The position numbers and the translations under genes are program-made. A stretch of 64,000 bases of DNA from Thiothrix unzii (GTDB taxonomy: Bacteria > Pseudomonadota > Gammaproteobacteria > Thiotrichales > Thiotrichaceae): the NCBI RefSeq assembly GCF_017901175.1, contig NZ_CP072793.1:3162001-3226000 (forward strand). The letters run 5' to 3'. Shown piece after piece: positions 9,135 through 32,443 of this stretch (within the stretch, counting starts at the first letter, position 1; each line of letters opens with the position of its first letter). Below the pieces are notes generated by a model. The model ran no database searches and was not told the DNA's origin. It saw only the letters and a list, made by a program, of their open reading frames with translations.

Positions 9135-9629
9135 CTAAAAATCGTTGGTCTTTTGCTGGGTACGCACCACTAAAAAGCCCCGCTGTTGCTCGGCATGATA
9201 AATCAAACTCAACTGCCGCCCTTCTTCCGTACCCACAAAACAGGTTTCGCGCTGCAATGAGGCGGGTTGCCACCAAGCTACGGGCGGCGTTTGCATCAAG
9301 AACAAACTTTGCAAACGTTCCGGGGTTAAATCCTGTTGCTGCAAACGGTTTTTGAGAATGAAACTGGTAACAGGCTCACGCGCTACGCTGAAAGTAAACC
9401 ACGCCGTCGTGCCTTGCGCAGAAGCCTGATTCACCCCGTAACTTTCCCCAAAAGCTTCAGCCTTAGTACCAAACCAGCTCGCTAGTGCTTGCTTTACCTC
9501 GTCAGGTTTAGCTTGGCGAAAGCCATTGGACGAGGCGGGCAACAACCATTCAGCTACAAATGGCGTTACCACTAAGGTCACACCAGACAAAATTAGCAAA
9601 GCCATGAGTATTGGGAAAAAGTATTTCAT
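9135..9629 (-). CDS. Uncharacterised single-TM protein
   Basis: 164 residues. One N-terminal membrane segment (FFPILMALLILSGVTLVVTPFVAEWLL), then a soluble region of mixed strand and helix with no motif I recognise. It overlaps the TatD gene by 4 bases (ATGA), so it is the last gene of a four-gene minus-strand operon starting at 11884. Probably exported or facing the periplasm. Confidence 0.7.
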   Translation of the reverse strand: MKYFFPILMALLILSGVTLVVTPFVAEWLLPASSNGFRQAKPDEVKQALASWFGTKAEAFGESYGVNQASAQGTTAWFTFSVAREPVTSFILKNRLQQQDLTPERLQSLFLMQTPPVAWWQPASLQRETCFVGTEEGRQLSLIYHAEQQRGFLVVRTQQKTNDF

Positions 9630-10405
9630 AGTCGAAACAGCCGAGTTGCGTTATCAGTGGTTACATGAGCAATGTGGGCGATGGTATCACCGCGTAGCTC
9701 AGCAAGGGTAGCAGCAATCACCGGCAAGCGTGTCGGATCATTACGCTGCCCACGCCACGCGCTGTCCGGTTGATCAGGTGCGTCGGTTTCCAACAACAGG
9801 TGTTCTAGCGGCACATTGGCAAGGATAGTGCGTAAACGATTAGCTCGTGGATAGGTGCATGTGCCGCCGACACCTAAATAAAACCCTAAGCGAATCAGAC
9901 TATCCGCCTGCTGTTGACTCCCGGCAAAGCTGTGAATCACGCCCGCTACCCCCGGAAAACGCCGAACACACTTAACGATGGCATCCACCGAACGCCGTGC
10001 GTGTATTATCAACGGCAAATCGAATTCACGCGCTAAACGCAAATGCGCCACAAACAACGCCTCCTGCGCCGCCACATCCAAATGCGGTAAGAAAAAATCC
10101 AGCCCGCATTCGCCCACCGCTACTGGATTGCCTTGCTGTAACCACCTCGGCAAGCTCAAAACGTGCTCAGGGCGATGTTCGTTAAGATAAACCGGGTGTA
10201 AACCGTAACTAGCATGAAAACCGGGAAGACTTGCACATACTGCCTGTAAACGCCCCCATGCGGCGGCTTTGACTGCCGGGAATACCAAATCAGTTACGCC
10301 AAGGGTTTGCATTTGCTGGGTGAGTGCGGTGCGATCGACATCAAAATCTGGCTCGTCGAAATGACAGTGGGTATCAATAAAACGCAGCGTTTCTGCCATG
10401 ATCAC
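9626..10405 (-). CDS. TatD-family metal-dependent hydrolase
   Basis: 259 residues, TIM-barrel amidohydrolase of the TatD group. Visible metal ligands: FIDTHCHFD near residue 10, the VGECGLDFF Glu, LIIHARR His, GVIHSFAGS His, and LLLETDAPDQP Asp. The family acts as metal-dependent deoxyribonucleases or on D-aminoacyl-tRNA. Length fits the YjjV/YcfH/TatD paralogues, and I cannot choose among them. It overlaps both neighbours by 4 bases, giving tight translational coupling. Confidence 0.9.
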   Translation of the reverse strand: MIMAETLRFIDTHCHFDEPDFDVDRTALTQQMQTLGVTDLVFPAVKAAAWGRLQAVCASLPGFHASYGLHPVYLNEHRPEHVLSLPRWLQQGNPVAVGECGLDFFLPHLDVAAQEALFVAHLRLAREFDLPLIIHARRSVDAIVKCVRRFPGVAGVIHSFAGSQQQADSLIRLGFYLGVGGTCTYPRANRLRTILANVPLEHLLLETDAPDQPDSAWRGQRNDPTRLPVIAATLAELRGDTIAHIAHVTTDNATRLFRL

Positions 10406-11043
10406 TCACACGGCTGGCTGGGTTGGTGCATAGCCAATAAAGCATTCATTGCCGCCGCCACTAGCGCACTGCCACCACGCATTCCATCGACAACAAGGCA
10501 TTCCACCCCTAATTCCTGATGTAAATCCCACAACCATTGCTTGGCTGCTGTCGCTTGCACAAAACCATGCGGCGCGGCAATCACTAAGGCAGGCGGTGGC
10601 ACACCTTCTTTTAATATTTCCAACAGACGAAACAAGGCGGTAGCCGATTGTCCAATCAACACAATACCGCCTGACATATAGGGCTTCCAGCATTCTACCG
10701 CACTCATTGCGCGAGTTTGGCGGTTGGCTTTGGCATGAGATACCACCGAAGCTTTATGGAGAAAATGCATGGGTTCTTGGGATAAACGACTGACATCCAA
10801 GGCATAACGGATTAGATCTTCGTCATACAACAGATTTTTGCGTTTTTTGAGGGCTTTCCCAGCGGTATTAATCAAATTGGCACTAAAGCGGATGTGCTGC
10901 GCCAACTGCGGTTCACCGTAGGCGTACACCATCGGAATCACCACTTCCTGCTGTTCAGCGGTAAAACCGGACAGATCGGTGAGTTCACGAATTTTTTCGA
11001 GATTTTGTGCCCAGATGCGCTCCGGGTCACGCACGTATTGCAT
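10402..11043 (-). CDS. CbiC/CobH-like protein lacking the catalytic His
   Basis: 213 residues, clearly of the precorrin-8X methylmutase family: N-terminal IWAQNLEKIRELTDLSGF, central TRAMSAVE, VLIGQSATALFRLLEIL, PALVIAAPHGFVQA, and C-terminal GMRGGSALVAAAMNAL. In CobH/CbiC the catalytic His lies in an R-x2-HACG-like motif; here the aligned stretch reads PMVYAYGE, with Tyr40 in place of that His. No other cobalamin gene lies nearby. It may bind a tetrapyrrole or have lost methylmutase activity. Operon partners are TatD and two envelope proteins. Confidence 0.8.
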   Translation of the reverse strand: MQYVRDPERIWAQNLEKIRELTDLSGFTAEQQEVVIPMVYAYGEPQLAQHIRFSANLINTAGKALKKRKNLLYDEDLIRYALDVSRLSQEPMHFLHKASVVSHAKANRQTRAMSAVECWKPYMSGGIVLIGQSATALFRLLEILKEGVPPPALVIAAPHGFVQATAAKQWLWDLHQELGVECLVVDGMRGGSALVAAAMNALLAMHQPSQPCE

Positions 11044-11059
11044 GACACACCCTCATCAC

Positions 11060-11884
11060 CTAACGCAACGCCGCTAAGAGGCTATCCGCACCAATCACAT
11101 CGCTAATATCTTCATAAGGCACGGTAAATTCGGTAGGCCCCATCACGTAAGGAGCCACTTCGTAAGGGTTAAACGCAAACACCATACCATCCGCCTGCAA
11201 CCCAAAGTTGGTATTCACACTAAACACATTGTTTTCAAACCAAAAACCTTCGGTTTCAAGATTGGCATCCGGGGCAATATTGCGTGCTTCACGGAAAGCT
11301 TTTTCAGCCGCGACATTTAACGCACTTTCATAACCCGGTGTCAGTAAATCCGCCAACGTCACTTGTTTGCCAGTCGTGGTATCAAACACAAAATAACGCT
11401 GCCCGCCGAACGGATGCGCACCACCGGTATAACCGTTTTCAGTGAAATTCAAGGTGATCAAATGACCTGCACCAAACACCACTGTGACCGTGCGTTCCAA
11501 TTCCCAACTACTCAGGGGGCTGGGTGTTTTTTGGTAATCCGCAATAAACATCGACGCTAATTCTTCCAGCGACGTGGCTTGCTTGCCTTGTTCATCACTG
11601 AATTCGACCAATTGGCTTAAAACAAACTGATTAATCGCATCGACCGCAGCAGGATTTGCCTCACCCAACACCTTGGGATAACTCACTTTAACACTCGCAC
11701 ACTGCATATTTTCAGCAGTCACGCCCGGATTGCCGGGGCATTGAGCACCGCCATTGCGCTGGAATTCGACTATTTCCGTCTTTACGCCTTCGGGCAAAGC
11801 TTCGCTGCCCAATACCGGCACATCCCACTTACAGGCACTCAATGACAACAAACTCATCAACAGCAACCACTTACTCACACCCAT
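11060..11884 (-). CDS. RsiV/DUF3298-like lipoprotein
   Basis: 274 residues. Lipoprotein signal (LLLMSLLSLSACKWD, lipobox LSAC). The mature part matches the DUF4163/DUF3298 pair seen in RsiV and PdaC-type envelope proteins: a first domain with VSYPKVLGEANPAAVDAINQFV and a second with NFTENGYTGGAHPFGGQRYFVFDTTTGKQVTLADLLTPG. The RsiV domain binds lysozyme in Firmicutes; the role in Gram-negatives is not known to me. First gene of the operon that continues with the CbiC-like gene 16 bases on. Confidence 0.8.
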   Translation of the reverse strand: MGVSKWLLLMSLLSLSACKWDVPVLGSEALPEGVKTEIVEFQRNGGAQCPGNPGVTAENMQCASVKVSYPKVLGEANPAAVDAINQFVLSQLVEFSDEQGKQATSLEELASMFIADYQKTPSPLSSWELERTVTVVFGAGHLITLNFTENGYTGGAHPFGGQRYFVFDTTTGKQVTLADLLTPGYESALNVAAEKAFREARNIAPDANLETEGFWFENNVFSVNTNFGLQADGMVFAFNPYEVAPYVMGPTEFTVPYEDISDVIGADSLLAALR

Positions 11885-11986
11885 CGTACACTTCCTCCCA
11901 AAACTGAGCCGTTTTGTCGTTTATCACCAAGATACCTGTAGCGGCTGCGTTCTGCCAGCTTTTTCCTAGCATTGCAGTGTGTATTA

Positions 11987-12622
11987 CTAAGGTGCAAGCC
12001 GTACTACTTCCCAATCCGCTGACTGCCGCCGGTATTCAAAACGGTCATGCAAACGACTCGAACGCCCCTGCCAAAATTCCACGGTTTCCGGCACGATCCG
12101 GTATCCACCCCAAAAATCCGGCAAAGGAATTTCACCAGCACTGAATTTACGCTTCATTTCATCCAGCTTAATTTCCAACAAGGTGCGCGAGGTAATGATC
12201 GAACTTTGCGCCGATACCCACGCCCCTAACTGGCTGCCGCGCGGACGACTGATAAAATAGCGTAACGATTCCAGTGTGGACACTTTTTCCGCGCGTCCGG
12301 TAATTTCCACCTGACGTTCGAGTTCTTTCCAAAACAACAACAACGCAACCTGCGGATTTTCACTGATCTGCTGGGCTTTTTGACTGTGGTAATTGGTGAA
12401 AAACACGAAGCCATTCTCGTCGTAGGATTTTAGCAGAACGGTGCGTAATGTGGGTTTGCCATTGGCTGCCACGGTGGCTATTTGCATGGCATTCGGCTCC
12501 AGCACTTCGGCGGCAATCGCCTGCTGAAACCACTGGTGAAATTGTTCAAAAGGGTTAGCTGCTAAGGTAGCCCGACTTAAATCCGCTTGGGTGTATTCCC
12601 GCCGCAGTGCGCCAATGTCCAT
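11987..12622 (-). CDS. pdxH: Pyridoxine/pyridoxamine 5'-phosphate oxidase
   Basis: 211 residues, the usual PdxH length. It oxidises PNP or PMP to pyridoxal phosphate using FMN. Visible family features: N-terminal LRREYTQADL, the PTLRTVLLKSYDENGFVFFTNYHSQKA FMN/substrate segment, RQVEITGRAEKV, SRPRGSQLGAWVSAQSS, and the C-terminal PDFWGGYRIVPETVEFWQGRSSRLHDRF. Cytoplasmic homodimer. Monocistronic by spacing. Confidence 0.96.
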   Translation of the reverse strand: MDIGALRREYTQADLSRATLAANPFEQFHQWFQQAIAAEVLEPNAMQIATVAANGKPTLRTVLLKSYDENGFVFFTNYHSQKAQQISENPQVALLLFWKELERQVEITGRAEKVSTLESLRYFISRPRGSQLGAWVSAQSSIITSRTLLEIKLDEMKRKFSAGEIPLPDFWGGYRIVPETVEFWQGRSSRLHDRFEYRRQSADWEVVRLAP

Positions 12623-14340: not shown

Positions 14341-16158
14341 ATGGCACTTTTAAACTTACGAAATATTCACCTCGAAAACGGCGACAATCGCCTTTTCGAC
14401 AGTATTGACCTGCAAATCGACGCGGGCGAACGCTTATGTTTGGTCGGGCGTAATGGCACGGGCAAATCCACCCTGATGAAATTGCTCTGCGGCGAAGTGA
14501 TTCCCGACGACGGTGACGTATTGCATTCCCCCGATGTCAAAATCGCGCGGCTGCAACAAGACGTACCGCACGGCATGGAAGCCAGCGTCTTCGAGGTCGT
14601 AGCGCAAGGTTTAACCGACTTGCACCCCGAAGACGAATGGCAGGTGCAATGGAAAGTTGACACGGTGCTATCGCGCTTACAACTTGACCCGGATACGCGC
14701 TTTGAAAGCCTCTCCGGTGGTTGGAAACGCCGCGCTTTACTGGCACGCGCCTTGGTTTCCGAACCCGACCTGTTACTGCTGGACGAACCAACCAACCACT
14801 TGGATATTCCTGCGATTGAATGGCTGGAAAACTTCCTGCTGAGTTTCAAAAGCACCCTGTTATTTGTGTCGCATGACCGCGCTTTCGTGCAAAAACTCGC
14901 GACACGCATTATCGAACTGGATCGCGGCAAGCTCACCAGTTGGGCTGGCACCTTTCAGCAATACCAAGAACGCAAACAAGCCGCGCTCGAAGCCGAAGCC
15001 CAACAAGCCGCGCTGTTTGATAAACGTTTAGCGGATGAAGAAGCGTGGATTCGCCAAGGTGTCAAAGCCCGCCGCACCCGTAATGAAGGCCGAGTACGCC
15101 GCTTAGAAGCGATGCGCAATGAATTCCAGCAACGCCGCAACCTCCAAGGCAAAGTGCAAGCGCAGATAGGGCAAGCCGACGCTTCCGGTAAAATCGTGCT
15201 GGAAGCCACTCACCTCAGTTACGGTTGGGCAGACACCCTGTTGATCAACGATTTCAGCACCACGGTATTACGTGGCGACAAAATCGGCATTATCGGCCCC
15301 AACGGGGTTGGTAAAACCACCTTGATCAAACTGTTGCTGGAGCAATTACAACCCACCTCTGGCACGGTTAACGTGGGAACGCGCCTGCAAGTAGCGTATT
15401 TCGACCAACACCGCTCGCAGTTCGACGGTGAAAAAAACCTGCGGGATAACATTGTTTCTGGCTCTGACTTTGTGGAAGTCAACGGTCAAAAACGCCATAT
15501 CATCAGTTATCTGCAAGACTTCCTGTTTACCCCATTACAAATCCAAAAGCCGGTTAAAGTGCTGTCTGGCGGGGAACGCAATCGCTTGTTGCTGGCACGC
15601 TTATTTGCGCAACCCTCGAATTTATTGGTGCTGGACGAACCCACCAACGACCTTGATGCCGAAACGCTGGAATTGCTGGAAGAATTGCTGATTGATTACC
15701 AAGGCACACTGTTGCTGATTTCGCATGACCGCAGTTTCCTCAACTCGGTGGTCACGCGCAGCATCGTGTTTGAGCGTTCTCTTGATGGCAAGGACACCAT
15801 TGGCGAATACGCTGGCGGTTACGACGACTGGCTGTTGCAACGCCCCACCTTACCTACGGAAAAATCCACGCAAAAATCGCCAAAAGCTGCGGAAAAACCA
15901 CCAATCGCAGCCAAACCCGTCAATAAACCCAAAAAGCTCAGCTTCAAAGATCAACGCGAATTGGATTTATTACCCGCCCGCTTGGAGCAATTGGAAGCCG
16001 CCATTGCCGCGATTCAAGATGCGATGGGTACGCCTACGTTCTATCAACAAAGCAGCACGGCAATTACCGCCAAGCAAGACGAATTAGCGGCGCGGGAAGC
16101 AGAGTTCGAGCAGGCGTTTGCACGCTGGGAAGAACTGGAGCAATTAGCTGCAACCTAA
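14341..16158 (+). CDS. uup: ABC-F ATPase Uup
   Basis: 605 residues with two ABC domains and no membrane segment. Walker A motifs GRNGTGKST and GPNGVGKTT; signature and Walker B pairs LSGGWKRRALLARAL with LLLLDEPTNHLD, and LSGGERNRLLLARLF with LLVLDEPTNDLD. The linker between domains is a charged ABC-F type arm, and the C-terminus has a basic linker plus a coiled coil (LDLLPARLEQLEAAIAAIQ) as in Uup. ABC-F proteins act on ribosomes; Uup also affects transposon excision and binds DNA. Confidence 0.93.
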   Translation: MALLNLRNIHLENGDNRLFDSIDLQIDAGERLCLVGRNGTGKSTLMKLLCGEVIPDDGDVLHSPDVKIARLQQDVPHGMEASVFEVVAQGLTDLHPEDEWQVQWKVDTVLSRLQLDPDTRFESLSGGWKRRALLARALVSEPDLLLLDEPTNHLDIPAIEWLENFLLSFKSTLLFVSHDRAFVQKLATRIIELDRGKLTSWAGTFQQYQERKQAALEAEAQQAALFDKRLADEEAWIRQGVKARRTRNEGRVRRLEAMRNEFQQRRNLQGKVQAQIGQADASGKIVLEATHLSYGWADTLLINDFSTTVLRGDKIGIIGPNGVGKTTLIKLLLEQLQPTSGTVNVGTRLQVAYFDQHRSQFDGEKNLRDNIVSGSDFVEVNGQKRHIISYLQDFLFTPLQIQKPVKVLSGGERNRLLLARLFAQPSNLLVLDEPTNDLDAETLELLEELLIDYQGTLLLISHDRSFLNSVVTRSIVFERSLDGKDTIGEYAGGYDDWLLQRPTLPTEKSTQKSPKAAEKPPIAAKPVNKPKKLSFKDQRELDLLPARLEQLEAAIAAIQDAMGTPTFYQQSSTAITAKQDELAAREAEFEQAFARWEELEQLAAT

Positions 16159-16232
16159 ACCCAAGCGTCTGTCGTTATCCACGCTAACGTATTACACTAA
16201 CCCCATCCATTATCGAAAAGGTAGTATTTGGT

Positions 16233-16439
16233 ATGCAGATGGCGACAATTTCTCCAAAATTCCAAGTAGTCATTCCTCGTGCTATTCGTGAGCCGATGGG
16301 AATTCAAGTTGGACAAAAAATACAGGTACTACGTTACGGTAATCGTATTGAGTTGATTCCATTTAAAATAGCCAGAGAGTTGCGCGGATTTTTAAAGGGT
16401 ATCAACACAACCGTCGAGCGCGAGACTGACCGTGTATGA
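16233..16439 (+). CDS. vapB: AbrB/MazE-fold antitoxin (VapB type)
   Basis: 68 residues with the swapped-hairpin AbrB DNA-binding motif at the N-terminus (ATISPKFQVVIPRAIREPMGIQVGQKIQVLRYGNRIELIP) and a short C-terminal tail that would wrap the toxin. The partner toxin gene starts inside its stop codon region (4-base ATGA overlap). A second in-frame ATG two codons in is possible. Such antitoxins neutralise VapC and repress their own promoter. Confidence 0.88.
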   Translation: MQMATISPKFQVVIPRAIREPMGIQVGQKIQVLRYGNRIELIPFKIARELRGFLKGINTTVERETDRV

Positions 16440-16813
16440 ATGTCGTGGACTCGTGTGGTTGGTTGGAATATTTTGCTGACGGCGCAAATGCCGATAAATT
16501 TGCAGCCGCTATTGAAGATACCCAACAGTTGATTGTTCCCGCGATCAGTATTTTTGAAGTATTCAAGCGGGTGCTACAGCAACGCGGTGAGGATGCTGCA
16601 TTGCAAGCCGTTGCGATCATGTCACAAGGGCAGGTGATTGATTTGGATATGTCACTTGCCTTGATGGCAGCGAAACTCTCTGCTGAACTTAAAATGCCTA
16701 TGGCAGATAGCATCATCCTCACCACCGCACGCCAATATCATGCAGTTGTTCTGACACAAGACAACGATTTTGAAGGCGTGGCAGGTGTCGAGTATTTTAA
16801 AAAAGTCACTTAG
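16436..16813 (+). CDS. vapC: PIN-domain toxin (VapC)
   Basis: 125 residues. PIN-domain ribonuclease with the expected acidic residues: D5 in VVDSCGW, the Glu in ISIFEVFK, the Asp in MPMADSIIL, and the Asp in LTQDNDF. VapC toxins cleave RNA, often initiator tRNA. It is coupled to the antitoxin by a 4-base overlap, and its 3' end overlaps by 8 bases the convergent helicase gene. Confidence 0.9.
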   Translation: MNVVDSCGWLEYFADGANADKFAAAIEDTQQLIVPAISIFEVFKRVLQQRGEDAALQAVAIMSQGQVIDLDMSLALMAAKLSAELKMPMADSIILTTARQYHAVVLTQDNDFEGVAGVEYFKKVT

Positions 16814-19454
16814 TCAGCTCGTGACAACTTGGTGAAAAGTTTGGCGTGTTCGCTGTAATATCATCAAAAATCGTTTTCAAATCAGTATCACGAAGTTCTT
16901 CAGTACTTGCAGTTATGACTATTCCATGTAACTGCGCCCTAAGATCATGCCAGCGTTGCTGTAAGATTTTCCAATTATGTTCGTCGTAAGTGCCACGAAA
17001 TACGACGGGGCGAATTTCAATCCGAGAAAAATGTTCAGGTTTTTCGTTTGCTTGACCTTCACTCAGCAGCGTATTTTCCCAATGGCTACCAACTCGGTCA
17101 ACTCGACCAATTTGCTGCTCAACAATACCGGGATTCCATTCGGGATGAAGTAATATAACAACTCGACATGCTTTGTGTAAATTTAAACCTTCACGACCAA
17201 CCATGGATTGGGCAACTAAGACCTTTGGAAAACTATGCAAACGGTTGAAAGCCACTTGCATGACTCTACGTGATTCTAGCTTGGTTTCCCCATACATAAA
17301 TCGGGCAAAACTGCCAAGTTGGTGATTATATTCATCACCTAGCCGTTTTTTGATTATTGAAAAATCAATGCTCTTTTCATGTGATTTAGCATCATTATTA
17401 ACATTGTTTGCACCTACCGTAGCTTTCTGTGCTTCATCATGCTCGGCATTGTCTGTATCCATAATGGCGTTAATTAATTCAATGAAGGTGGTGGCGCAAT
17501 ATTTTGGCAATGGATTTTTGTCTCTATTCAATAATTCGTACATGGCGCGGCTTAACCAACTCAATGTATCGTCATCATCTTGGATAGAATCCAGTATTCT
17601 GCTCATAGGAGTAGGGCTTTGCCCTAAGCCTTGCCTAATTGTATTTATAAGCTGATTTCTAAATGACTTTAAGCGACGTTGTTCCTTATCGTATTGTTTA
17701 TCCAGCTCACGATTGATGCTTTCAATTGTAGGAAAACGAGTATCAAGCTGCAACTGAGTACATGCAGCTTGAACTGCTGCTACCTCATCCTGATGAATAG
17801 TGGCCTGTGGCCAATGCATATTGGTTTGTAGTCGATGTAACATTTGTCTCGCGTTCAACAGATTAACCAATACTCTCATCGGCTGAGTAAAGCGTCCAAA
17901 AACCAGTACTTTTTCGCCTTTTTCAATGTACTTTTCAATTTCTTCAACTGTTGTAAGAATAGCAGGGTGGTCATGAATTGATGCTTGTTTTTCAAAGCCA
18001 TTGCCAATAATAGATAACCACCATTCAATACGTTGCTGACGTTTTCCATCATCAACTGATTTTTGGTTATCACTTTCTATTTCCCCTTGTGTGGGTTTGT
18101 CAGATTCTACACACAGATATTGATCAATTAAGGAAGAAATTCCATGTCCATTGCCAAGAGTAAGTCTTAAGCGTTTCGCTTTAGGGTCGTCTGCCTGATT
18201 TGCAACGACAGATAATGCTTCGGCTGCGCAAATGGCTTGTTTCCATGATGCAGACAATGAGGTCGTTGTAATTGGGATTTCTTGTTGGCAACGGTAGTCA
18301 CTGGCTGACAAACCCGTTAATGCCTGAAAGTTTTTGACTGCTTTATCCTCACGCTTATCTCGGCGCAATAGAAAAGGTGACAGGGTGGATTGAAACTGTT
18401 TAGCAGCCTGTTTGTACTCTTCACGAGTTTTTTCATTACTGCGCCAAGTTTTTTGAAGGTACTGAACTGCATGGGTATAGTTTTCAATAGATGGATAAAT
18501 GTTGTTCATCTGTTCCATATCGAGTTGGATACGTTGCAGTGTTTGCTTCCATTGTGCTAAGTGCAATTCTACGGGTGTTGCAGTCAAAGCAACCCGCCGA
18601 GTACTGGTAGTTGGTAGAATGACATTACTCAATAGTCGTGATAGACCACTATCTTCTGCACGACTTTTATGGGCTTCATCAATAACCACTAAATCAAAAA
18701 CACCTAAACCAATACCTACTGCTCTTTCCAGCCAGATACGCCCCTCTTTATGCTTATGGTAGAAATCTCCTGAGCGCAATGGCATAGTATTCCACGCATC
18801 ATTTTTATAGAGGTTATCTAATAAATGAAAAGCAGGATGTGAAGCATCTTCAGAAATTTCTTTGACAATACTCGCTGTTGCATTACGTACCAAAGAATCT
18901 GATAAATTCTCACTGAGAGAACCACGGGGTAATCGTCCATCTTGCCGCTTACGCCATTCTGCAAACAACCGAGGAAGTAAAGCCCAACGCCAACTTTTTG
19001 ATGTATTTCCTAAACTCCAGTTAGTAAATGAGTGTGAGACTAAAACAATATCCTCATTAAACCATGGTGCTTGCTCTTGTGGGTCATCTGATTCCCATGC
19101 CTTGAGATAAGCCGAAAAGCTTCTTAGTACAGACTTCGTATTAGGTCTGCCACGTTTTTGTAGTTCGTCTTGCCACTGATAACCCAAGCCTGGGGGAATC
19201 AAAATAGCAACGCGCCCCTTACATTCAATAACAGCATGTGCCAACTCAATTGCTACACGGGTTTTTCCCATGCCAACTTCATCAGCAATTACTACGCCAT
19301 TTTTGGTAATGCGATCCGCAAGAGCCAAGATGCTGGCCTGTTGACCATCGTTCAACCATGTTTCTTTGCCTTGCTCACACAATTGTTTTTGTTTGGCAGC
19401 AGAACAACGCAGGATTTCGGCAACTTGTTGCCATCCCTGAAAGGATTGGTTCAT
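16806..19454 (-). CDS. SNF2-type helicase of three-gene putative defence operon
   Basis: 882 residues. Superfamily 2 helicase: motif I ADEVGMGKT (about 57-65), DEAH box in LVVIDEAHKSR (259-262), motif III LTATP (about 290-294), then a long insert and a C-terminal helicase lobe with KVLVFGRFTQPMRVL, VLVAQSMVGREGLNLHKACRVVILLHPEWNP and motif VI QQIGRVDRVGS. The order matches SNF2/RapA-like translocases used in DISARM and other restriction-like systems. It overlaps the PLD gene by 4 bases. No methyltransferase accompanies it. DNA translocation coupled to the PLD partner is the inferred role. Confidence 0.85.
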   Translation of the reverse strand: MNQSFQGWQQVAEILRCSAAKQKQLCEQGKETWLNDGQQASILALADRITKNGVVIADEVGMGKTRVAIELAHAVIECKGRVAILIPPGLGYQWQDELQKRGRPNTKSVLRSFSAYLKAWESDDPQEQAPWFNEDIVLVSHSFTNWSLGNTSKSWRWALLPRLFAEWRKRQDGRLPRGSLSENLSDSLVRNATASIVKEISEDASHPAFHLLDNLYKNDAWNTMPLRSGDFYHKHKEGRIWLERAVGIGLGVFDLVVIDEAHKSRAEDSGLSRLLSNVILPTTSTRRVALTATPVELHLAQWKQTLQRIQLDMEQMNNIYPSIENYTHAVQYLQKTWRSNEKTREEYKQAAKQFQSTLSPFLLRRDKREDKAVKNFQALTGLSASDYRCQQEIPITTTSLSASWKQAICAAEALSVVANQADDPKAKRLRLTLGNGHGISSLIDQYLCVESDKPTQGEIESDNQKSVDDGKRQQRIEWWLSIIGNGFEKQASIHDHPAILTTVEEIEKYIEKGEKVLVFGRFTQPMRVLVNLLNARQMLHRLQTNMHWPQATIHQDEVAAVQAACTQLQLDTRFPTIESINRELDKQYDKEQRRLKSFRNQLINTIRQGLGQSPTPMSRILDSIQDDDDTLSWLSRAMYELLNRDKNPLPKYCATTFIELINAIMDTDNAEHDEAQKATVGANNVNNDAKSHEKSIDFSIIKKRLGDEYNHQLGSFARFMYGETKLESRRVMQVAFNRLHSFPKVLVAQSMVGREGLNLHKACRVVILLHPEWNPGIVEQQIGRVDRVGSHWENTLLSEGQANEKPEHFSRIEIRPVVFRGTYDEHNWKILQQRWHDLRAQLHGIVITASTEELRDTDLKTIFDDITANTPNFSPSCHELTK

Positions 19455-21457
19455 GGTTTACTTGCCCCCAATTTTTTATAGCTCTGTACATTCCATTCCT
19501 GTTCCAAGCGTAAAAGCATTTCCTCGTAGGATTGTCCTTCACTACTAAGGTTGGTTTCCGCATAAGCTGGACGGAATGGCTTTTCCCATAATGGACTAAG
19601 AGGATTGATGGAAAATTGTCGAAACGCACACAAAACAATACTGTCTTTTGCTTGTATCAGCGTCTGTTCCAGTCGGTTACACCATGTAAGCCAGTCAACT
19701 TGCACTATAGCTGTTTGCTTTTCTGCTATATTTTCAATTAGCTGCATCATTACTCTTGCTGGGTACTGGTTTGATTCAGGCATCCCTATTACATTGTTTG
19801 ATTGCATAACGTTAGATTCAGTGTCATCCGTATCTGTTGGCAAGTCTTCATCTTCAGGTGGTTGTGGGAAATTGAGCAATTGCCACCACGCATCTTCTAG
19901 TTCCAATTGCGGTAATGCAGTACCGGCAAAACGACCATGCTCATCCATCACCGGAACTTCAGTTTGAAACTCGCTATCACCATTGAACCAACGAACCGTA
20001 ACTTGCCTAGGTTTAGCTTCAACCCAATTAAAGTAGCCTGAATTATCTGTCGCGCATGGTGTGCCGGAAACGCACAGTACATCAAACGGAGTTGTGTCTA
20101 AATTTCCAGCTTCATCCGGCACTTTGAGTTTTCCAATGCCATTACTTTCACACCAAACTAGGCAAGCTACAGGAGCAGCAATAAATTGAGTATCACGTTC
20201 TGGCATTCCATTTCCTGCACTCAACTTATCAGGGGTTGAATTCAGGTCGTCCTTCCATTGCATAGGCAAAACATTGGTGATTAAGTTCTGCGGCAAGGTT
20301 TCTTTGTTACCTTCCCATTGGAAATTTTGCGGGGCAATGATAATCCCAGCTTCAAGATTTCCACCTGATACTGATGTTTTTTGTGCAAATCCAGGAAGTG
20401 TCAGATTGCCCGATCCCAGATACAACCATGCGTTATTGCAATACGGGGAATTTTTTCGATAAGTAGCTGAAAACAAAAATTTCGCATGTAAAAATCTTTC
20501 TTGTTTTCCTAGAAATGGCGGTTGACCTGCTTTTCTAACACTCCATCCCTGTTCTTTTATTGCATCAATAGAATGAACGATGCACTGGCAATCTAATGGA
20601 TTTATGAAAACATCTATTTCAGCAGAGTTAGTTAACAAGTCCGCATCTTGAAGTGAATCAACGATTTTACCAAGAACAGTAGGAAGACCCGCACTATTAT
20701 TAGCTTCATAGAAACCTGACCCCATCGCAAGATAGTTACGACGGATATTTGGATCAGCAAGCTCTGAAATCTTTCCAACTAACTGAGCTAAGAGGGAATG
20801 CCTGCGATTATCAAAGAAGCGGGATGATTCTGATGTTTTAATCTCACTGATTTTTTGTAACCATTTCTCGACCTGTACCCTTTTTCTATAAGATTCAGTT
20901 TCAATGTTAGTACGCAATTGCAGCAGCCGATCATCAAAATACTCTGTCAGCCAAACCATCATCTGCCATGCTTTATGAACGTCTACACAAGCTTGTTGCC
21001 TTTCTTTATTTTTATGAATATCCGTCAAGGTTTGACTGTCAACATCAACTCGCCATGCTAGATCAAGACTATCTTCAAGCGTATTTTTTGTCCAGTTTCC
21101 AGTGGAAACAATCAAGCGTATACACCATCGTGATTGCTCAGACTCATGTTGAAATCCCAGTATGGCAACTTTGGCATGTAACAATTTAAACGGTGGGTTT
21201 TTCCGTATTGGCAGATGCAACAAGCCCGGTGCAGCAGTCATCGAAATTTGTGGATTACCTGCATCTAGCAATATCGCTAAAACGATACGCCCACTATAAG
21301 CACGTTGAGCATTAGTCTGACGTGAGAACCGTTCTAATGCATTATTAAGAAAATCACTATCGGCTGAGTAGCCACACAACCAACCAAAAGTTCCAATAAA
21401 ATTCTCTGGTGGTTCAAAGTGATGCACCAAAGAAGGAGGAGAGAATTTACTCATCAC
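19451..21457 (-). CDS. PLD/Tdp1-like phosphodiesterase of the same operon
   Basis: 668 residues, with two phospholipase D-type half sites. First: H-x-K in FKLLHAKVAILGF (H94, K96) then VSTGNWTKN. Second: RFLHAKFLFS then YLGSGNLTLPGF with NLEAGI. The HxK followed by S-x-x-N pattern is closer to tyrosyl-DNA phosphodiesterase than to the classic HKD lipase. The C-terminal 200 residues hold a further, unrecognised domain. Cleavage of phosphodiester or protein-DNA links is the likely chemistry. Overlaps both neighbours by 4 bases. Confidence 0.8.
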   Translation of the reverse strand: MMSKFSPPSLVHHFEPPENFIGTFGWLCGYSADSDFLNNALERFSRQTNAQRAYSGRIVLAILLDAGNPQISMTAAPGLLHLPIRKNPPFKLLHAKVAILGFQHESEQSRWCIRLIVSTGNWTKNTLEDSLDLAWRVDVDSQTLTDIHKNKERQQACVDVHKAWQMMVWLTEYFDDRLLQLRTNIETESYRKRVQVEKWLQKISEIKTSESSRFFDNRRHSLLAQLVGKISELADPNIRRNYLAMGSGFYEANNSAGLPTVLGKIVDSLQDADLLTNSAEIDVFINPLDCQCIVHSIDAIKEQGWSVRKAGQPPFLGKQERFLHAKFLFSATYRKNSPYCNNAWLYLGSGNLTLPGFAQKTSVSGGNLEAGIIIAPQNFQWEGNKETLPQNLITNVLPMQWKDDLNSTPDKLSAGNGMPERDTQFIAAPVACLVWCESNGIGKLKVPDEAGNLDTTPFDVLCVSGTPCATDNSGYFNWVEAKPRQVTVRWFNGDSEFQTEVPVMDEHGRFAGTALPQLELEDAWWQLLNFPQPPEDEDLPTDTDDTESNVMQSNNVIGMPESNQYPARVMMQLIENIAEKQTAIVQVDWLTWCNRLEQTLIQAKDSIVLCAFRQFSINPLSPLWEKPFRPAYAETNLSSEGQSYEEMLLRLEQEWNVQSYKKLGASKP

Positions 21458-22773
21458 TCATCCTCCGTATTTTTATTGCCAACTAACCACTGATCAAGCT
21501 GACCATGTAGATCAATATTTAATAGAAACAGATTGCGCATTCGGTAAGAAATTCCTTCTGGCCACTCAGGCCACTGCATATCAGATGAAACATCTGTTTC
21601 TATCCCTGAATCTTCTTGGTCATCAACGGTGTTGGAGTGTTGAGCTATATCTGAGCCAATGAATGCCATGCCGGGTACAATGAAATGGTTTCGCTGTTTC
21701 AATACACGACCATCACGTTGTACAAGAGTGGTAATAATCTTTTCATCATCTTGTACGCATTCGTTTACAAAACTGGTGGCTATTTTGCTGGGGAAAGGAT
21801 CATGACTGAGATGGATAAAATCTGTTGCTCGTTTTTTTAGTTCTTTAATCGCAGATTGAATTTCTGAAGGCAGAGCGTTTCGTAAATCTAGATGTTGCTT
21901 TGCTTGATTGCCAATCTGCAACTCCACTTGGTCTAATACATTAAGTGCAGCCTGACGAGTGAGAAAAAACATTCCACCGGATTGTAAATCATCCCAATGC
22001 AACTGCTCCAGCATCGGTGGCTTTAATCGCCAATCTAGCTTTTGCCCCGGACTACCAAGCAAATGTTCCATCCAGTTTAAGGCAGCCTTGCGGCGATTCG
22101 CACCAAAACTATCTATATCGGCAGCGATGAGCCGTTCTCGCAAGAAGTCACGGGCATTCAACGGCATTGATGTTTTGGGGGATAAAACAGATAGTAGACC
22201 CGCAGTATTGATATTCTTTTTATTCCCATTTATCCATTCGGCAAGAACTTTAATTGGGGTTTTCTGGGAACGATAATCGTCACAAATTATGTCTATAAAT
22301 GTTTGACCATGATGTGTACACGCAAATGAGTTGAACCGTTCCCCATTTGACTCCACAAACCCTAACGCTCGTAATGCCTGAACTGTTGCCATCCGCATGG
22401 GTTGGGAAACATAAAAGCCAGATTTGGAAACAACGAAAAAACTGAGGTCTGCCTTGTTTTTATTTCTTAATTTGGTAACACCACGCAGGCGGGAATCCGC
22501 TTCCCATGTCTCATTCAAGGCTAGCCAGCATCCGAGTGCTTCAACTGCATTGGCAACCCTAATGTTATCTACTGGCTTGCCTTGACTTCGCACATACTCG
22601 GCAACACTGACTCCAAGTGTGGCAAGAAATAATTGTTTGCCAAACCAAACACCCCCCATGCCGGGTACAGCAAGATCATTGAATGCACGGACAGCAGCAC
22701 CAAGCCCTAAAGTACGTGTACGTTTGGTGCTTTCCACTGTTTCTGCACCAAGTAGTCCCCAATAACAAGTCAT
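21454..22773 (-). CDS. Unknown protein, first gene of helicase/PLD operon
   Basis: 439 residues with no domain I recognise. It is soluble, with an N-terminal region rich in Gly (TLGLGAAVRAFNDLAVPGMGGVWFGKQLFLATLG) and a winged-helix-like middle (SQPMRMATVQALRALGFVESNGERFNSF). The C-terminus is acidic (EDSGIETDVSS). It starts the three-gene operon and overlaps the PLD gene by 4 bases, so stoichiometric action with PLD and helicase is likely. A target-recognition or specificity role is only a guess from position. Base composition looks more AT-rich than the nearby soeA. Confidence 0.7.
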   Translation of the reverse strand: MTCYWGLLGAETVESTKRTRTLGLGAAVRAFNDLAVPGMGGVWFGKQLFLATLGVSVAEYVRSQGKPVDNIRVANAVEALGCWLALNETWEADSRLRGVTKLRNKNKADLSFFVVSKSGFYVSQPMRMATVQALRALGFVESNGERFNSFACTHHGQTFIDIICDDYRSQKTPIKVLAEWINGNKKNINTAGLLSVLSPKTSMPLNARDFLRERLIAADIDSFGANRRKAALNWMEHLLGSPGQKLDWRLKPPMLEQLHWDDLQSGGMFFLTRQAALNVLDQVELQIGNQAKQHLDLRNALPSEIQSAIKELKKRATDFIHLSHDPFPSKIATSFVNECVQDDEKIITTLVQRDGRVLKQRNHFIVPGMAFIGSDIAQHSNTVDDQEDSGIETDVSSDMQWPEWPEGISYRMRNLFLLNIDLHGQLDQWLVGNKNTEDE

Positions 22774-23114
22774 TGCTGATTGTCCTATTTTCAGCCAAGT
22801 AAGATCGGGATTCTACTTGATAAATATTATAAAAAGTATACAAATGCCAAGGCTTCATAGTATATCAGAATGGCTCCCCCACTCCCCTGCACGACTACAA
22901 CCATGTGGAATCTGTCGACCTGTGGAGCAGAGCGAGCATTCTATGTCCCCCTAGAATTCAACCATACGCCATCTGAATGTTACCTACTGGATTAATACGC
23001 TAATAAATAAATTCTATTCATATACATAAAATGGGTTATTGATTACTTGACTTACATCAAGCACTATCCGTTAACACTGTATTTCAGTAATTTATTATTT
23101 AGTTACGTACTGAT
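22774..23114. other. Divergent AT-rich intergenic region between helicase operon and soeA
   Basis: 341 bases without a credible gene. It must hold the promoters of the leftward helicase operon and of soeABC. The soe-proximal part is strongly AT-rich and holds an FNR-like box at 23047-23060. The middle (about 22870-22960) is less AT-rich and shows nothing I can name. No tRNA or terminator seen. Confidence 0.6.
23047..23060. promoter_or_regulatory. FNR/Anr-like box upstream of soeA
   Basis: TTGAC-TTAC-ATCAA matches the FNR family consensus TTGAT-N4-ATCAA with one mismatch, centred about 62 bases before the soeA ATG. It suggests oxygen- or redox-dependent control of the sulfite dehydrogenase operon by an FNR/Anr-type activator. 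No footprint or expression data available. Confidence 0.5.
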
Positions 23115-27785: not shown

Positions 27786-29218
27786 GTGTAATCTAAGCTA
27801 AATTAAGCAACATCTCGCTATCCACAGGATAGTGTCACATTGGAAATGACAACGCCTTTGCTCTCCGAGAGACATTTGGAAAAGCCCTTACCTACAAGTG
27901 CACAGGAATAGTTGATGCCACTCCAACCTCTCAGCGCCGGTTTATATGATCTCATTCTGACGGATGCGCTGAAGCAAAAAATACAAGCGCTTACCACACA
28001 ACAAGCCAGCTTAGAAAATCTGGATACTGCTAATAGCCATGAGCGATTGGCTGAAGTTGTTGGGCGGCAGTTGGCGTTAATTCTGGACGATCTGGCGGGG
28101 CAAGATGATCAGAAGCTGTTAAACCAACTGGAATTCGTCAATGCGTTATTACTGAATTTGCGCCAGCGAGTATCCGATTCTGCTGAAGTAGTAGAACTGT
28201 TGGCGAACCCGGTGCAGCGCTTAACGTCCATACACCCACAACATCAAACACCTCAAGCACCGGAAACCGGATTATCTACCCCATGGTTATTCACCGCAGG
28301 CAAAGATACACCGTCACTGCTCCATGAGCTTAGACGGGAACTTGCCAGTTGTGATCAAGTTGATATTTTGGTCAGTTTTATAACTGTTCCGGGTGTCAGG
28401 CGTTTATACGATGTTTTGCAAACGATTACTGCTGTGGACGCAAAAGGAACAAGTCGTACCCAGATTCGTATAATCACCACAACGTATACTGGCGCAACAG
28501 ATCAGCAAGCACTTAATGATTTGGCACGCCTGCCGGGTTGCACCGTCAAAGTTTCCTTGGATGGACGTCGCACGCGACTTCATGCCAAAGCCTGGATTTT
28601 CAAACGTCACACTGGCTTTGGTTCTGCTTATGTTGGCAGCGCGAATCTTTCCGGGGCGGCTTTGCTGGGCGGGTTGGAGTGGACGACGAAATTTACCGAA
28701 CATGGTCAAGCCGACTTATTTATCCGCGCCCAAGCGCATTTTGAAACGCTGTGGGAAGACGGCGAATTTCAAACATACGATCCAGAAAATCCTATTCATC
28801 AACAAGCCTTAAAAGTGGCTTTGGCACGTGAAGCAGGCACTGGCCTATTAGCACTCCCCACCTTTTTTGACCTACAGCCCAAGCCGTATCAAGAAGAGAT
28901 GTTGGAGCAGTTACAACGCGAGCGCGAACATGGCCGGATGAAAAATCTCGTGGTGGCGGCGACGGGCACCGGAAAAACGGTGGTGGCCGCGTTTGATTAT
29001 CGCGCCATTTGTAGGCAATACGGCGGACGTCCGCGTCTGTTGTTTGTGGCACATCGGGAGGAAATCCTCCGGCAATCGTTAAGAACTTATCGCGAAGTTT
29101 TACGTGATCAGAGTTTCGGTGAACTCTTGGGTGGTGGGCACGAAGCGGATCAATTCGACCATTTGTTTACCACGATAGACAGCCTAAGCAGCCGTCAATT
29201 GGTCGAGCGCTACGGTGC

Positions 29219-29226
29219 AGATTATT
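29219..29226. repeat. Target-site duplication, left copy
   Basis: AGATTATT directly left of the insertion element; an identical copy lies at 30556-30563 directly right of it. Eight bases is the usual duplication length for the IS256 family. Confidence 0.95.
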
Positions 29227-30555
29227 GAGACTGTAAAGAAATCTGTGTAACTGCGTTTTGCTCATAAATCAAACAAAGTCTTTGAGCCTGTCTTCAAACA
29301 GGAGCATAAAGCGGTTGAGTGCCGATTTCCAGTTATGGATGGGCATCGTCCATTTGCGCGAAGCCTGTTCAATGGCAAGGAAAACCACTTTTTTGGCAGC
29401 ATCTTCGTTAGTAAATACCTTGCGCTTGTTCACCGCCTTGCGCACCACGCTGTTGAGGGATTCGATGGCGTTAGTGGTGTAGATGGCTTTGCGGATGTCC
29501 GCAGGGTAAGCAAAGAAGGTGTTGAGGTTTTCCCAGTGGTTGAGCCACGAACGGCTGATTTGTGGGTATTTGTCATTCCAGCGTTCACCAAACTGCTGGA
29601 GGGCGAGTTTCCCTTGGTCTTCGGTGCTGGCTTGGTAGATGTCCTTGAGGTCGGTGGTGACGGCTTTGTAATCTTTCCATGCCACGAATTTCAAGGAGTT
29701 GCGTACCATGTGGACGATGCAAAGTTGGATGTCAGTTTTGGGGAACACCGCATTGATGGCATCGGGGAAGCCTGTCAGCCCATCCACGCAGGCAATCAGG
29801 ATGTCCTGGACACCCCGATTTTGCAGTTCAGTCAAAACGCCTAACCAGAATTTCGCACCTTCATTTTCGGACAGCCATAGCCCCAACAGTTCTTTATGCC
29901 CTTGCAAGTTGACCGCCAATGCAAGGTAGACTGATTGGTTAACCACTTGTTTTCCCTTGCGGATTTTCATCACCATCGCATCAAGGTAGACAATCGGGTA
30001 GACCGGGTCTAACGGGCGGGATTGCCATGTTGTCACCTGATCCAACACCGATGCCGTGACACTGGATACCAAGGTCGGGGAAACCTCTGCCCCGTACAGC
30101 TCTTGGAAGCAATCCACGATTTCACGCGTACTCATGCCTTTGGCATACAGGTACAGGATTTGGTCATCCATCTTGGTGAAGCGGGTTTGGTTTTTCTTCA
30201 CCAGTTGCGGGCTGAAACTGCCATCACGGTCACGCGGGGTTTGGATTTCAACCGTGCCTTGGTCGCTTTTCAGCAGCTTGCTCATGTAACCGTTACGGCT
30301 GTTCCCTACCTCTGGGGTTTTCGCATGGCGGTCATACCCTAGATGGTCATCCAATTCCGCGTTTAAAGCAGCCTCTACCGTCATCTTCAGCAGGAGTTGC
30401 GATAGTTGCTTGAGGTCTGCTTCCGTCTTGATGCTTTTTGCCAAGTCTTTGGCTAGAGCTTGGAGTTGTGCCTGTTCCATTGTGTCGTACTCTCTCATCG
30501 TTACCCGCATTAGGGTAGCCTATCAGAGCAGTTACACAGTTTGGTTTACAGTCTC
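29227..30555 (-). mobile_element. IS256-family insertion sequence, complete
   Basis: 1329 bases bounded by 28-base imperfect terminal inverted repeats (29227-29254 and 30528-30555): the outer 11 bases GAGACTGTAAA and inner 12 bases CTGTGTAACTGC are identical, with a 5-base variable core. It carries one transposase gene and is flanked by an 8-base duplication. The ends and gene look intact, so the insertion appears recent and the element could be active. Confidence 0.96.
29269..30510 (-). CDS. IS256-family (mutator type) transposase
   Basis: 413 residues. DDE transposase with IVYLDAMVMKIR (first Asp), ILIACVDGLTGFPDAI (second Asp), an IQLCIVHMVRNSLKFV segment typical of the family, and TTNAIESLNSVVRK with the catalytic Glu. 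Full family length. Several in-frame ATGs occur near the start (30510, 30498, 30480); the one at 30480 follows a GAGAG sequence. It reads opposite to the interrupted host gene. Confidence 0.96.
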   Translation of the reverse strand: MRVTMREYDTMEQAQLQALAKDLAKSIKTEADLKQLSQLLLKMTVEAALNAELDDHLGYDRHAKTPEVGNSRNGYMSKLLKSDQGTVEIQTPRDRDGSFSPQLVKKNQTRFTKMDDQILYLYAKGMSTREIVDCFQELYGAEVSPTLVSSVTASVLDQVTTWQSRPLDPVYPIVYLDAMVMKIRKGKQVVNQSVYLALAVNLQGHKELLGLWLSENEGAKFWLGVLTELQNRGVQDILIACVDGLTGFPDAINAVFPKTDIQLCIVHMVRNSLKFVAWKDYKAVTTDLKDIYQASTEDQGKLALQQFGERWNDKYPQISRSWLNHWENLNTFFAYPADIRKAIYTTNAIESLNSVVRKAVNKRKVFTNEDAAKKVVFLAIEQASRKWTMPIHNWKSALNRFMLLFEDRLKDFV

Positions 30556-30563
30556 AGATTATT
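30556..30563. repeat. Target-site duplication, right copy
   Basis: AGATTATT directly right of the insertion element, matching 29219-29226. Confidence 0.95.
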
Positions 30564-32443
30564 GGCACACTGTCGTGGTGGATGAATGCCATCGTTTAGC
30601 GGCAGATCGGTTTGATACTTTCGTGCGGGCGATACAGCCGTCGATATTGCTGGGTTTAACCGCGACCCCGGAGCGAAGTGATGGCAAGCCGATTTTGCCC
30701 TACTTCGACTGCCGCCCGGATGGAAGTCCTGCTGTGGAGTTACGTTTGTGGCACGCGTTGGATTTACAGCTACTTGCCCCATTTGAATATTACGCTTGCG
30801 ATGATGACACGGATTTCAGCCAAATACCGTGGCAGCAAAGTGGCGAAACCAGCGCGCTGGACAAGTTGCTGACGGGCGATCATGTGCGCGCCAGTTTGGT
30901 TATCAACGAATGGCAACGTTTAACCGCTAATCCGCGCCAATGCAAAGCCTTGGTGTTCTGCGTATCCGTTGCTCATGCCCAATTCATGACCAGCATCTTG
31001 AATGCCGCCGGTTTGCCTGCTGCTTGCGTTGTGGGTGAAACGCCCACTGAGGAACGTCGCTTAGCCCCGCAGCGTTTAAATCAAGGCGAATTATGCGCCT
31101 TAGTGACGGTTGACCTTTATAACGAAGGGGTTGATTTGCCGATGGTGGATACCTTGCTGTTGTTACGCCCGACACAAAGCCCGGTATTGTTTCAGCAGCA
31201 AATTGGTCGCGGTTTTCGCCTTTCACCCGGCAAAGAAAGCTGCTTAATATTGGACTTTGTGGGGCAGCATCGTGTGGAATTTCGGTTTGATAAATTGCTG
31301 GGTAGCCTTACAGGACAATCGCGTCGCCAGTTGATGGATTCGGTGGAAAAGGGTTTTGGTGCATTGCCTGCGGGGTGTCATATCCATTTACAGAAGCGCG
31401 CCCGCGACCAGGTTCTGCATAGTTTGCGTACTTTGACGCAACAAGGGTGGCGCAATTTACGCCGAGAATTACAGGCTTACATCGCTTTGCACAGTAATCG
31501 CCACGTGTTGTTGAAAGATTTTCTGCGTGAACAACTCATTGAATTATCGGATATTTACCGCTCAGCAAAACCCAGCGGCTGGACGAGTTTGAAGCGTGAT
31601 GCTGGCCTGCTTCAGCAACCGCAAGGGGATGAAGAAAGCTATTTTAGTGAGCATTTTGCTGATCTATTGCATAGCGACGACCCAGCACAGCTAGCGTTGT
31701 TGCAACGTATTGCGGCAAGCGCTGGGCATTACACTGCGCAAAATGAGCACGAAGAACGCCGCTTGCAAATGTTGGCTTACCAAGTTGATGGCCAACAGAC
31801 GCGGGTTGGGCATTACCGTGATTTCCTGCAACGTTTAGCCGCGCACCCTGTTGTTTGCGAAGATTTACAGGAGTTATCAGATGTCCTGCAAGCACGCAGT
31901 CATGTATCTAATCGACCTATCGCAGGTTTGGAAGATACGCCACTGTGTTTACATGCCGCGTATGGGGTGCGTGAAATTCTGACGGCGGTGGGTTGGCTGA
32001 CGGCGGAATGTCGCCCTCCGTTTCAGTCTGGTGTACTGCCGCTGAAAGCGCGTAAAACGGAGCTTTTGTTTGTAACGCTCGATAAAAGCAGTGGTTATCA
32101 TGCCAGCATCGCTTATCATGACTATGCGATTAGCCGTGAATTATTCCATTGGCAAAGCCAAAATTCAGCCGGCTCTGAAACCACGTCAGGAAAACGTTAC
32201 CTTGAAAGTCCGGGAAATGGCTGGCAATTCCAGCTTTTTGTTCGCAAGCATAAAGGCAGTCCTTATCGCGCCTGTGGTGCCGTCACCTTGGTTGAAGCCA
32301 CGGGCAATAAGCCGATGAATATCCGCTGGCGGTTGCAAACACCGCTGCCGATTCGGTTGTTCAGAGAGTTCAGCGTGTTACGGGATGAGTAATGTTAGTA
32401 TGCGCACGCCCCCTCCACCGCAACACAACAGACAAGGTTCACC

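Follow-up and report, generated by a model that had tools for sequence, protein, structure and literature searches.

A horizontally acquired three-gene module of Thiothrix unzii, probably the core of a defence system parallel to Azaca and PDC-M27

The analysed window, a 64,000-nucleotide stretch of the Thiothrix unzii genome (contig NZ_CP072793.1, positions 3,162,001 to 3,226,000), carries a three-gene operon, here called the trio. From its sequences we infer that the trio is probably the horizontally acquired core module of an anti-phage or anti-mobile-element defence system, a family parallel to Azaca and to PDC-M27, a candidate system of PADLOC. The first-pass annotation of the window had proposed a compact defence operon that attacks nucleic acids. 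The operon is indeed compact and mobile and is predicted to act on nucleic acids; the defence part of that reading is likely, judging from sequence comparisons.

A foreign operon at a variable site

The trio lies on the minus strand and reads leftward. Gene 1 (21454-22773, ATG start) codes for a 439-aa putative core subunit of no known family, gene 2 (19451-21457, GTG start) for a 668-aa predicted two-lobed PLD-superfamily phosphodiesterase with a C-terminal helical domain, and gene 3 (16806-19454, ATG start) for an 882-aa predicted SNF2-family SF2 ATPase/translocase. ORF calls placed the three genes as first described, with overlaps of exactly 4 bases at both the gene 1/gene 2 and the gene 2/gene 3 junctions. 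The reported absence of a methyltransferase was also correct, as none adjoins the trio in the window. The neighbours there are housekeeping genes and a VapBC pair, not a defence island, and this copy is a bare trio with none of the WYL, AAA, DUF2779 or PD-(D/E)XK/UvrD partners. The VapBC-type pair occupies 16233-16813. A small AbrB-like reading frame at about 16233-16440, recognized by eye, is followed by a PIN-domain (VapC) gene at 16436-16813, which is convergent with gene 3 and overlaps its end by 8 bases.

The trio is foreign to its genome and was acquired horizontally at a variable site. GC content is 40-45% across the trio, compared with about 50-55% around it. A protein search revealed no match to gene 2 in 62 other genomes of the order, and gene 1 was matched in one of 368 other genomes of the class. 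The right flank common to nine genomes of the same genus starts at window positions 23002-23036. In a sister genome (G048), homology to the left flank ends exactly at 16158 and starts again at 23002; between these points the sister genome has an unrelated 8.1 kb that includes sbcC/sbcD among other genes. In the window, the stretch between these common flanks (16159-23002) holds the VapBC pair and the trio, with the lower GC over the trio. A search for insertion marks flanking this stretch found no tRNA and no clear direct repeats.

Left of the molybdopterin oxidoreductase operon, sister genomes (L142 and L136) differ in content: this variable locus holds sbcC/sbcD in one sister genome and a PIN gene with a large CHAT/NTPase-like gene in another. 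Elsewhere in the window, at 27912-32392, a PLD-ResIII-Helicase_C-DUF3427 gene is apparently split by a mutator-type transposase gene (29269-30510), the PLD/ResIII part lying before the transposase gene and the Helicase_C/DUF3427 part after it.

Conservation and predicted functions of the trio

The trio is a real conserved unit that is inherited together and is mobile. Contigs from one genome per species were scanned with a gene 2 alignment, which yielded 126 relatives; 80 loci, 35-50% identical, were kept. As gene 2 patterns were the starting point of the selection, the counts hold only for loci that carry gene 2. The 80 further species loci span Proteobacteria, Nitrospirota, Planctomycetota, Acidobacteriota and others. 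The search for co-occurrence of all three genes that the first-pass annotation had suggested found the same gene order in 80 other loci, and the trio is therefore not a chance arrangement. Order 1-2-3 was kept wherever the contig was long enough, and a few copies were disrupted. Among relatives, the junction between genes 1 and 2 is mostly -4, -8 or -1 bases and that between genes 2 and 3 mostly -4. Pairwise protein distances correlate across the trio (r=0.91, 0.88 and 0.92; 72 loci). On plasmids, tblastn detected genes 1 and 2 in the same seven records, followed in each by an SNF2 gene, and four of the seven records are conjugative; phage records gave no gene 2 match. With copies in at least 80 species of several phyla, the trio lies outside the copies of PADLOC, Pfam and NCBIfam that we searched, where genes 1 and 2 have no family model of their own. 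In Novosphingobium pSA1 (L008), the PLD gene is broken at about 9560-12000 by about 2.4 kb of other sequence, and this copy of the trio is probably inactive.

Gene 2 matched no family in Pfam, NCBIfam or PHROGs. The two HxK...N sites that had been noticed in it are present as HAK96..STGN121 and HAK326..GSGN351, and H94, K96, N121, H324, K326 and N351 are invariant in 81/81 sequences. The AlphaFold2 model (pLDDT 93) has two PLD lobes and a C-terminal part, and its best PDB matches are the PLD structure 7e0m and the PLD3/PLD4 exonucleases (E 1e-8). PLD3 and PLD4 are 5' exonucleases of nucleic acids. Two HxK half-sites within a two-lobed PLD fold place gene 2 in the PLD superfamily. Tdp1 and PLD3/PLD4 have the same two-lobed fold and two HxK...N half-sites, but identity to gene 2 is about 10% and gene 2 has an extra C-terminal part of about 250 residues. 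One gene 2 orthologue gave a weak Pfam match, under the cut-off, to Tyr-DNA_phospho (Tdp1). Among defence models, gene 2 weakly matched ZacB in PADLOC (E=4e-7, 27 bits), and comparison of deep profiles with hhalign gave a probability of 89 and E 2e-6 for the same protein; resemblance to PDC-M27B, by profile comparison, was weak.

Gene 3 contains, above Pfam cut-offs, SNF2/ResIII (SNF2-rel_dom 7e-9) and Helicase_C (1e-8) domains. The helicase motifs read earlier from the sequence (DEVGMGKT, DEAH and QQIGRVDR) are all present, and the residues of Walker A, DEAH and QQIGRxxR are fully or almost fully conserved across 80 sequences. The closest structures by profile are SNF2 remodellers and RapA. 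In PADLOC the best match of gene 3 was PDC-M27C (E=2.3e-19, 67 bits, over part of the 892-position model), followed by DrmD (4e-17), BrxH (1.5e-16) and, weakly, ZacC (2e-11, 41 bits). Deep profiles gave a probability of 99 for PDC-M27C and, with hhalign, of 98 for ZacC (E 3e-14). A quick helicase tree, which supports the separation of clades and not their mutual order, resolved the trio family, Azaca and PDC-M27 as three separate clades (support 99, 100 and 99).

Gene 1 had been described as a 439-residue protein with no recognized domain, and it indeed matched no family above chance in Pfam, NCBIfam, PHROGs or PADLOC. V36, P37, E78, G98, R127 and L134 are invariant in a 77-row alignment. The AlphaFold2 model (pLDDT 90, pTM 0.89) is nearly all helical, and residues ~125-166, predicted to form helix-strand-strand-helix, look like a winged-helix segment by secondary structure. 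Searches with the model found no significant fold match in the PDB or among viral structures (BFVD), and the profile had no sequence relative in the PDB. Comparison of deep profiles with hhalign gave E=0.19 against ZacA (reversed-profile controls, E 0.09-0.2) and E=0.57 against PDC-M27A, not above reversed controls. From these features we infer that gene 1 may be a recognition or scaffold subunit.

Comparison with Azaca, PDC-M27 and DISARM

The first-pass annotation had suspected kinship to published helicase/PLD defence operons, and such distant relatives do exist in Azaca (ZacABC) and PDC-M27. By its sequences, the trio falls outside both systems at gene 1, yet has the same plan. We take ZacABC to be the Azaca system of Millman et al. 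2022. In loci with a ZacA match, ZacA is DUF6361 (PF19888), with a PLD protein and then a helicase downstream. Azaca includes a PLD-like domain (PMC10952713), and ZacC is an SF1/SF2 helicase (PMC12278908). The trio has the Azaca order of a small unknown protein (~390 aa in Azaca), a PLD protein (~600 aa) and an SF2 helicase in one operon; ZacB and ZacC are distant homologues of genes 2 and 3, and an upstream PD-(D/E)XK and UvrD pair occurs in both families. Unlike in Azaca, where the first gene is DUF6361, gene 1 of the trio has no PADLOC or Pfam match to ZacA/DUF6361 and no detectable kinship to it, and the helicase clade is separate. No ZacA was found in viral contigs. In Azaca loci L107, L109, L115 and L019, a PD-(D/E)XK and UvrD pair (AddAB-like) adjoins ZacABC, which suggests that the Azaca operon is extended by this pair.

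PDC-M27 likewise has a small unknown first protein (460 positions), a PLD protein and an SNF2 protein in the same order; in one locus these are a 474-aa protein, a PLD protein and an SNF2 protein. It supplies the best PADLOC match of gene 3, and its AAA-DUF2779-WYL accessory operon is closely similar to that of a trio relative (66-68%). It differs in that gene 1 lacks profile similarity to PDC-M27A and in its separate helicase clade. PDC-M27A (PDLC04552) had no match in the genome that carries the trio. The first-pass annotation had expected that a match to an already modelled system would count against its reading. Such a match was found only in part: ZacB and ZacC are distantly related to genes 2 and 3, and gene 1 matches no model. 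Within the literature covered, a search on ZacABC, DUF6361 and PDC-M27 found no functional study.

DISARM had been named as a comparison. Its DrmD and DrmC also bring an SNF2-like helicase and a PLD protein together, and the helicase/PLD kinship to defence stands, but the nearest described relatives are Azaca and PDC-M27. Unlike in DISARM, the operon and its surroundings lack a methyltransferase, DrmA and DrmB, and gene 2 combines two PLD half-sites in one long protein. We rejected the assignment of the trio to DISARM, as the DrmD model scored 67.7 bits against a cut-off of 610.

Accessory operons, mechanism and alternative readings

Neighbour clustering and domain scans were applied to the 69 loci with more than 5 kb of upstream sequence. 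WYL proteins were found in 26 loci, a double-AAA ATPase in 20, PD-(D/E)XK in 10, UvrD in nine and an ADP-ribosylglycohydrolase/phosphatase in six, while 38 of the 69 had no accessory. Accessory proteins of relative L035 are closely similar to those of a PDC-M27 locus in Rhodoferax (AAA 67.6%, DUF2779 66% and WYL 68% identical), and the two genes upstream of Azaca locus L019 encode proteins that share 40% (PD-(D/E)XK) and 47% (UvrD) identity with their counterparts in relatives. These identities indicate an exchange of at least two accessory modules among the three core families, which we rate as the strongest evidence that the cores have equivalent roles. As to the defence neighbours that the first-pass annotation had suggested looking for, genes of BREX, restriction or DISARM adjoin some relatives and are missing beside many others. 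BREX PglZ/BrxL genes were found in the vicinity of five relatives, and only a few of the 112 nearest non-accessory neighbours (a raw count, not an enrichment) matched PADLOC models at E<=1e-15, among them DISARM and type I restriction. One IMG/VR contig (L106) carries AbiEi/AbiEii-like genes, AAA, WYL, ADP-ribosylglycohydrolase, the trio and PD-(D/E)XK/UvrD in one array.

The trio could be a divergent Azaca whose gene 1 is a ZacA drifted past recognition, a reading we regard as possible but doubtful. Order and size class are the same (396 positions in the ZacA model; 395-443 aa for most gene 1 proteins of relatives), genes 2 and 3 have homologues in ZacB and ZacC, the accessory pair is common to both families, and a similar 'LGLG...PG' stretch is seen by eye near the N-terminus. 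However, the profile comparison of gene 1 with ZacA (E=0.19) did no better than reversed controls, the gene 3 clade (99) stands apart from the ZacC clade (100), and in PADLOC gene 3 is closer to PDC-M27C than to ZacC.

Two further readings concern the function of the trio. Its presence on seven plasmids, four of them conjugative, on an IMG/VR contig together with AbiE genes and the complete accessory set, and in a foreign genomic stretch in the window would fit a role directed mainly at plasmids or rival mobile elements (plasmid exclusion or stabilization) and not at phages. Defence systems generally ride on plasmids, however, and some relatives adjoin the anti-phage BREX and DISARM genes, so we consider this reading unlikely. 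A DNA-repair operon, in which a Tdp1-like PLD protein would clear protein-DNA adducts or blocked ends and the SNF2 motor would strip proteins, appears improbable given the patchy, mobile and plasmid-borne spread of the trio and its absence from close relatives, which are unlike core repair, and given accessories swapped with Azaca and PDC-M27. The HxK...N half-sites resemble Tdp1 and an orthologue weakly matches Tyr-DNA_phospho, although the PDB search ranks PLD and PLD3/4, not Tdp1; the PD-(D/E)XK and UvrD pair also recalls the AddAB/RecBCD repair nucleases, and SNF2 proteins act in repair and transcription recycling.

If the trio is a defence core, the SNF2 protein would translocate on invading DNA and, most likely, deliver or activate the PLD phosphodiesterase, which would cut or trim the DNA backbone. 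Gene 1, with its winged-helix-like segment, may recognize a DNA feature or a partner and link the motor to the enzyme. Because there is no modification methylase, discrimination would have to rest on the state of the DNA (ends, gaps, replication intermediates, topology or foreign modification) and not on a protective mark. The WYL, AAA, DUF2779 and PD-(D/E)XK/UvrD partners of many relatives may add regulation and extra DNA processing. We mention Hachiman by analogy only: there, a sensor helicase is coupled to a nuclease released on DNA damage (PMC12278908).

We give about an even chance to the broader view that Azaca, PDC-M27 and the trio are three separate families of interchangeable 'unknown + PLD + SNF2' cassettes within one modular defence super-system, plugging into the same accessory operons (AAA-DUF2779-WYL, ADP-ribosylglycohydrolase and PD-(D/E)XK-UvrD), with a first subunit of a fold unseen in solved structures setting recognition. 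The accessory exchange suggests that these poorly characterized systems are of one modular type. Work on any one family would then shed light on all three: on the DNA state that sets off the motor, on the target of the PLD enzyme and on what is read by the first subunit. The trio would also bring a protein of unsolved fold into the list of defence subunits.

We further noticed a two-gene pair, in which a ~520-aa protein without a Pfam family is followed by a PLD protein of ~770-835 aa (L021 4291-8210, L022, L057 14839-18644, L145, L146, L147, L148 and L149). Kinship of gene 1 to the ~520-aa family (E=0.005) was rejected, as the match was out of register with an earlier alignment. In its N-terminal part, the ~520-aa protein is related to ZacA (profile E 1e-6). 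The pair, possibly an unmodelled defence pair, often adjoins type I restriction or Zorya-like genes, and in L057 it lies directly downstream of the trio.
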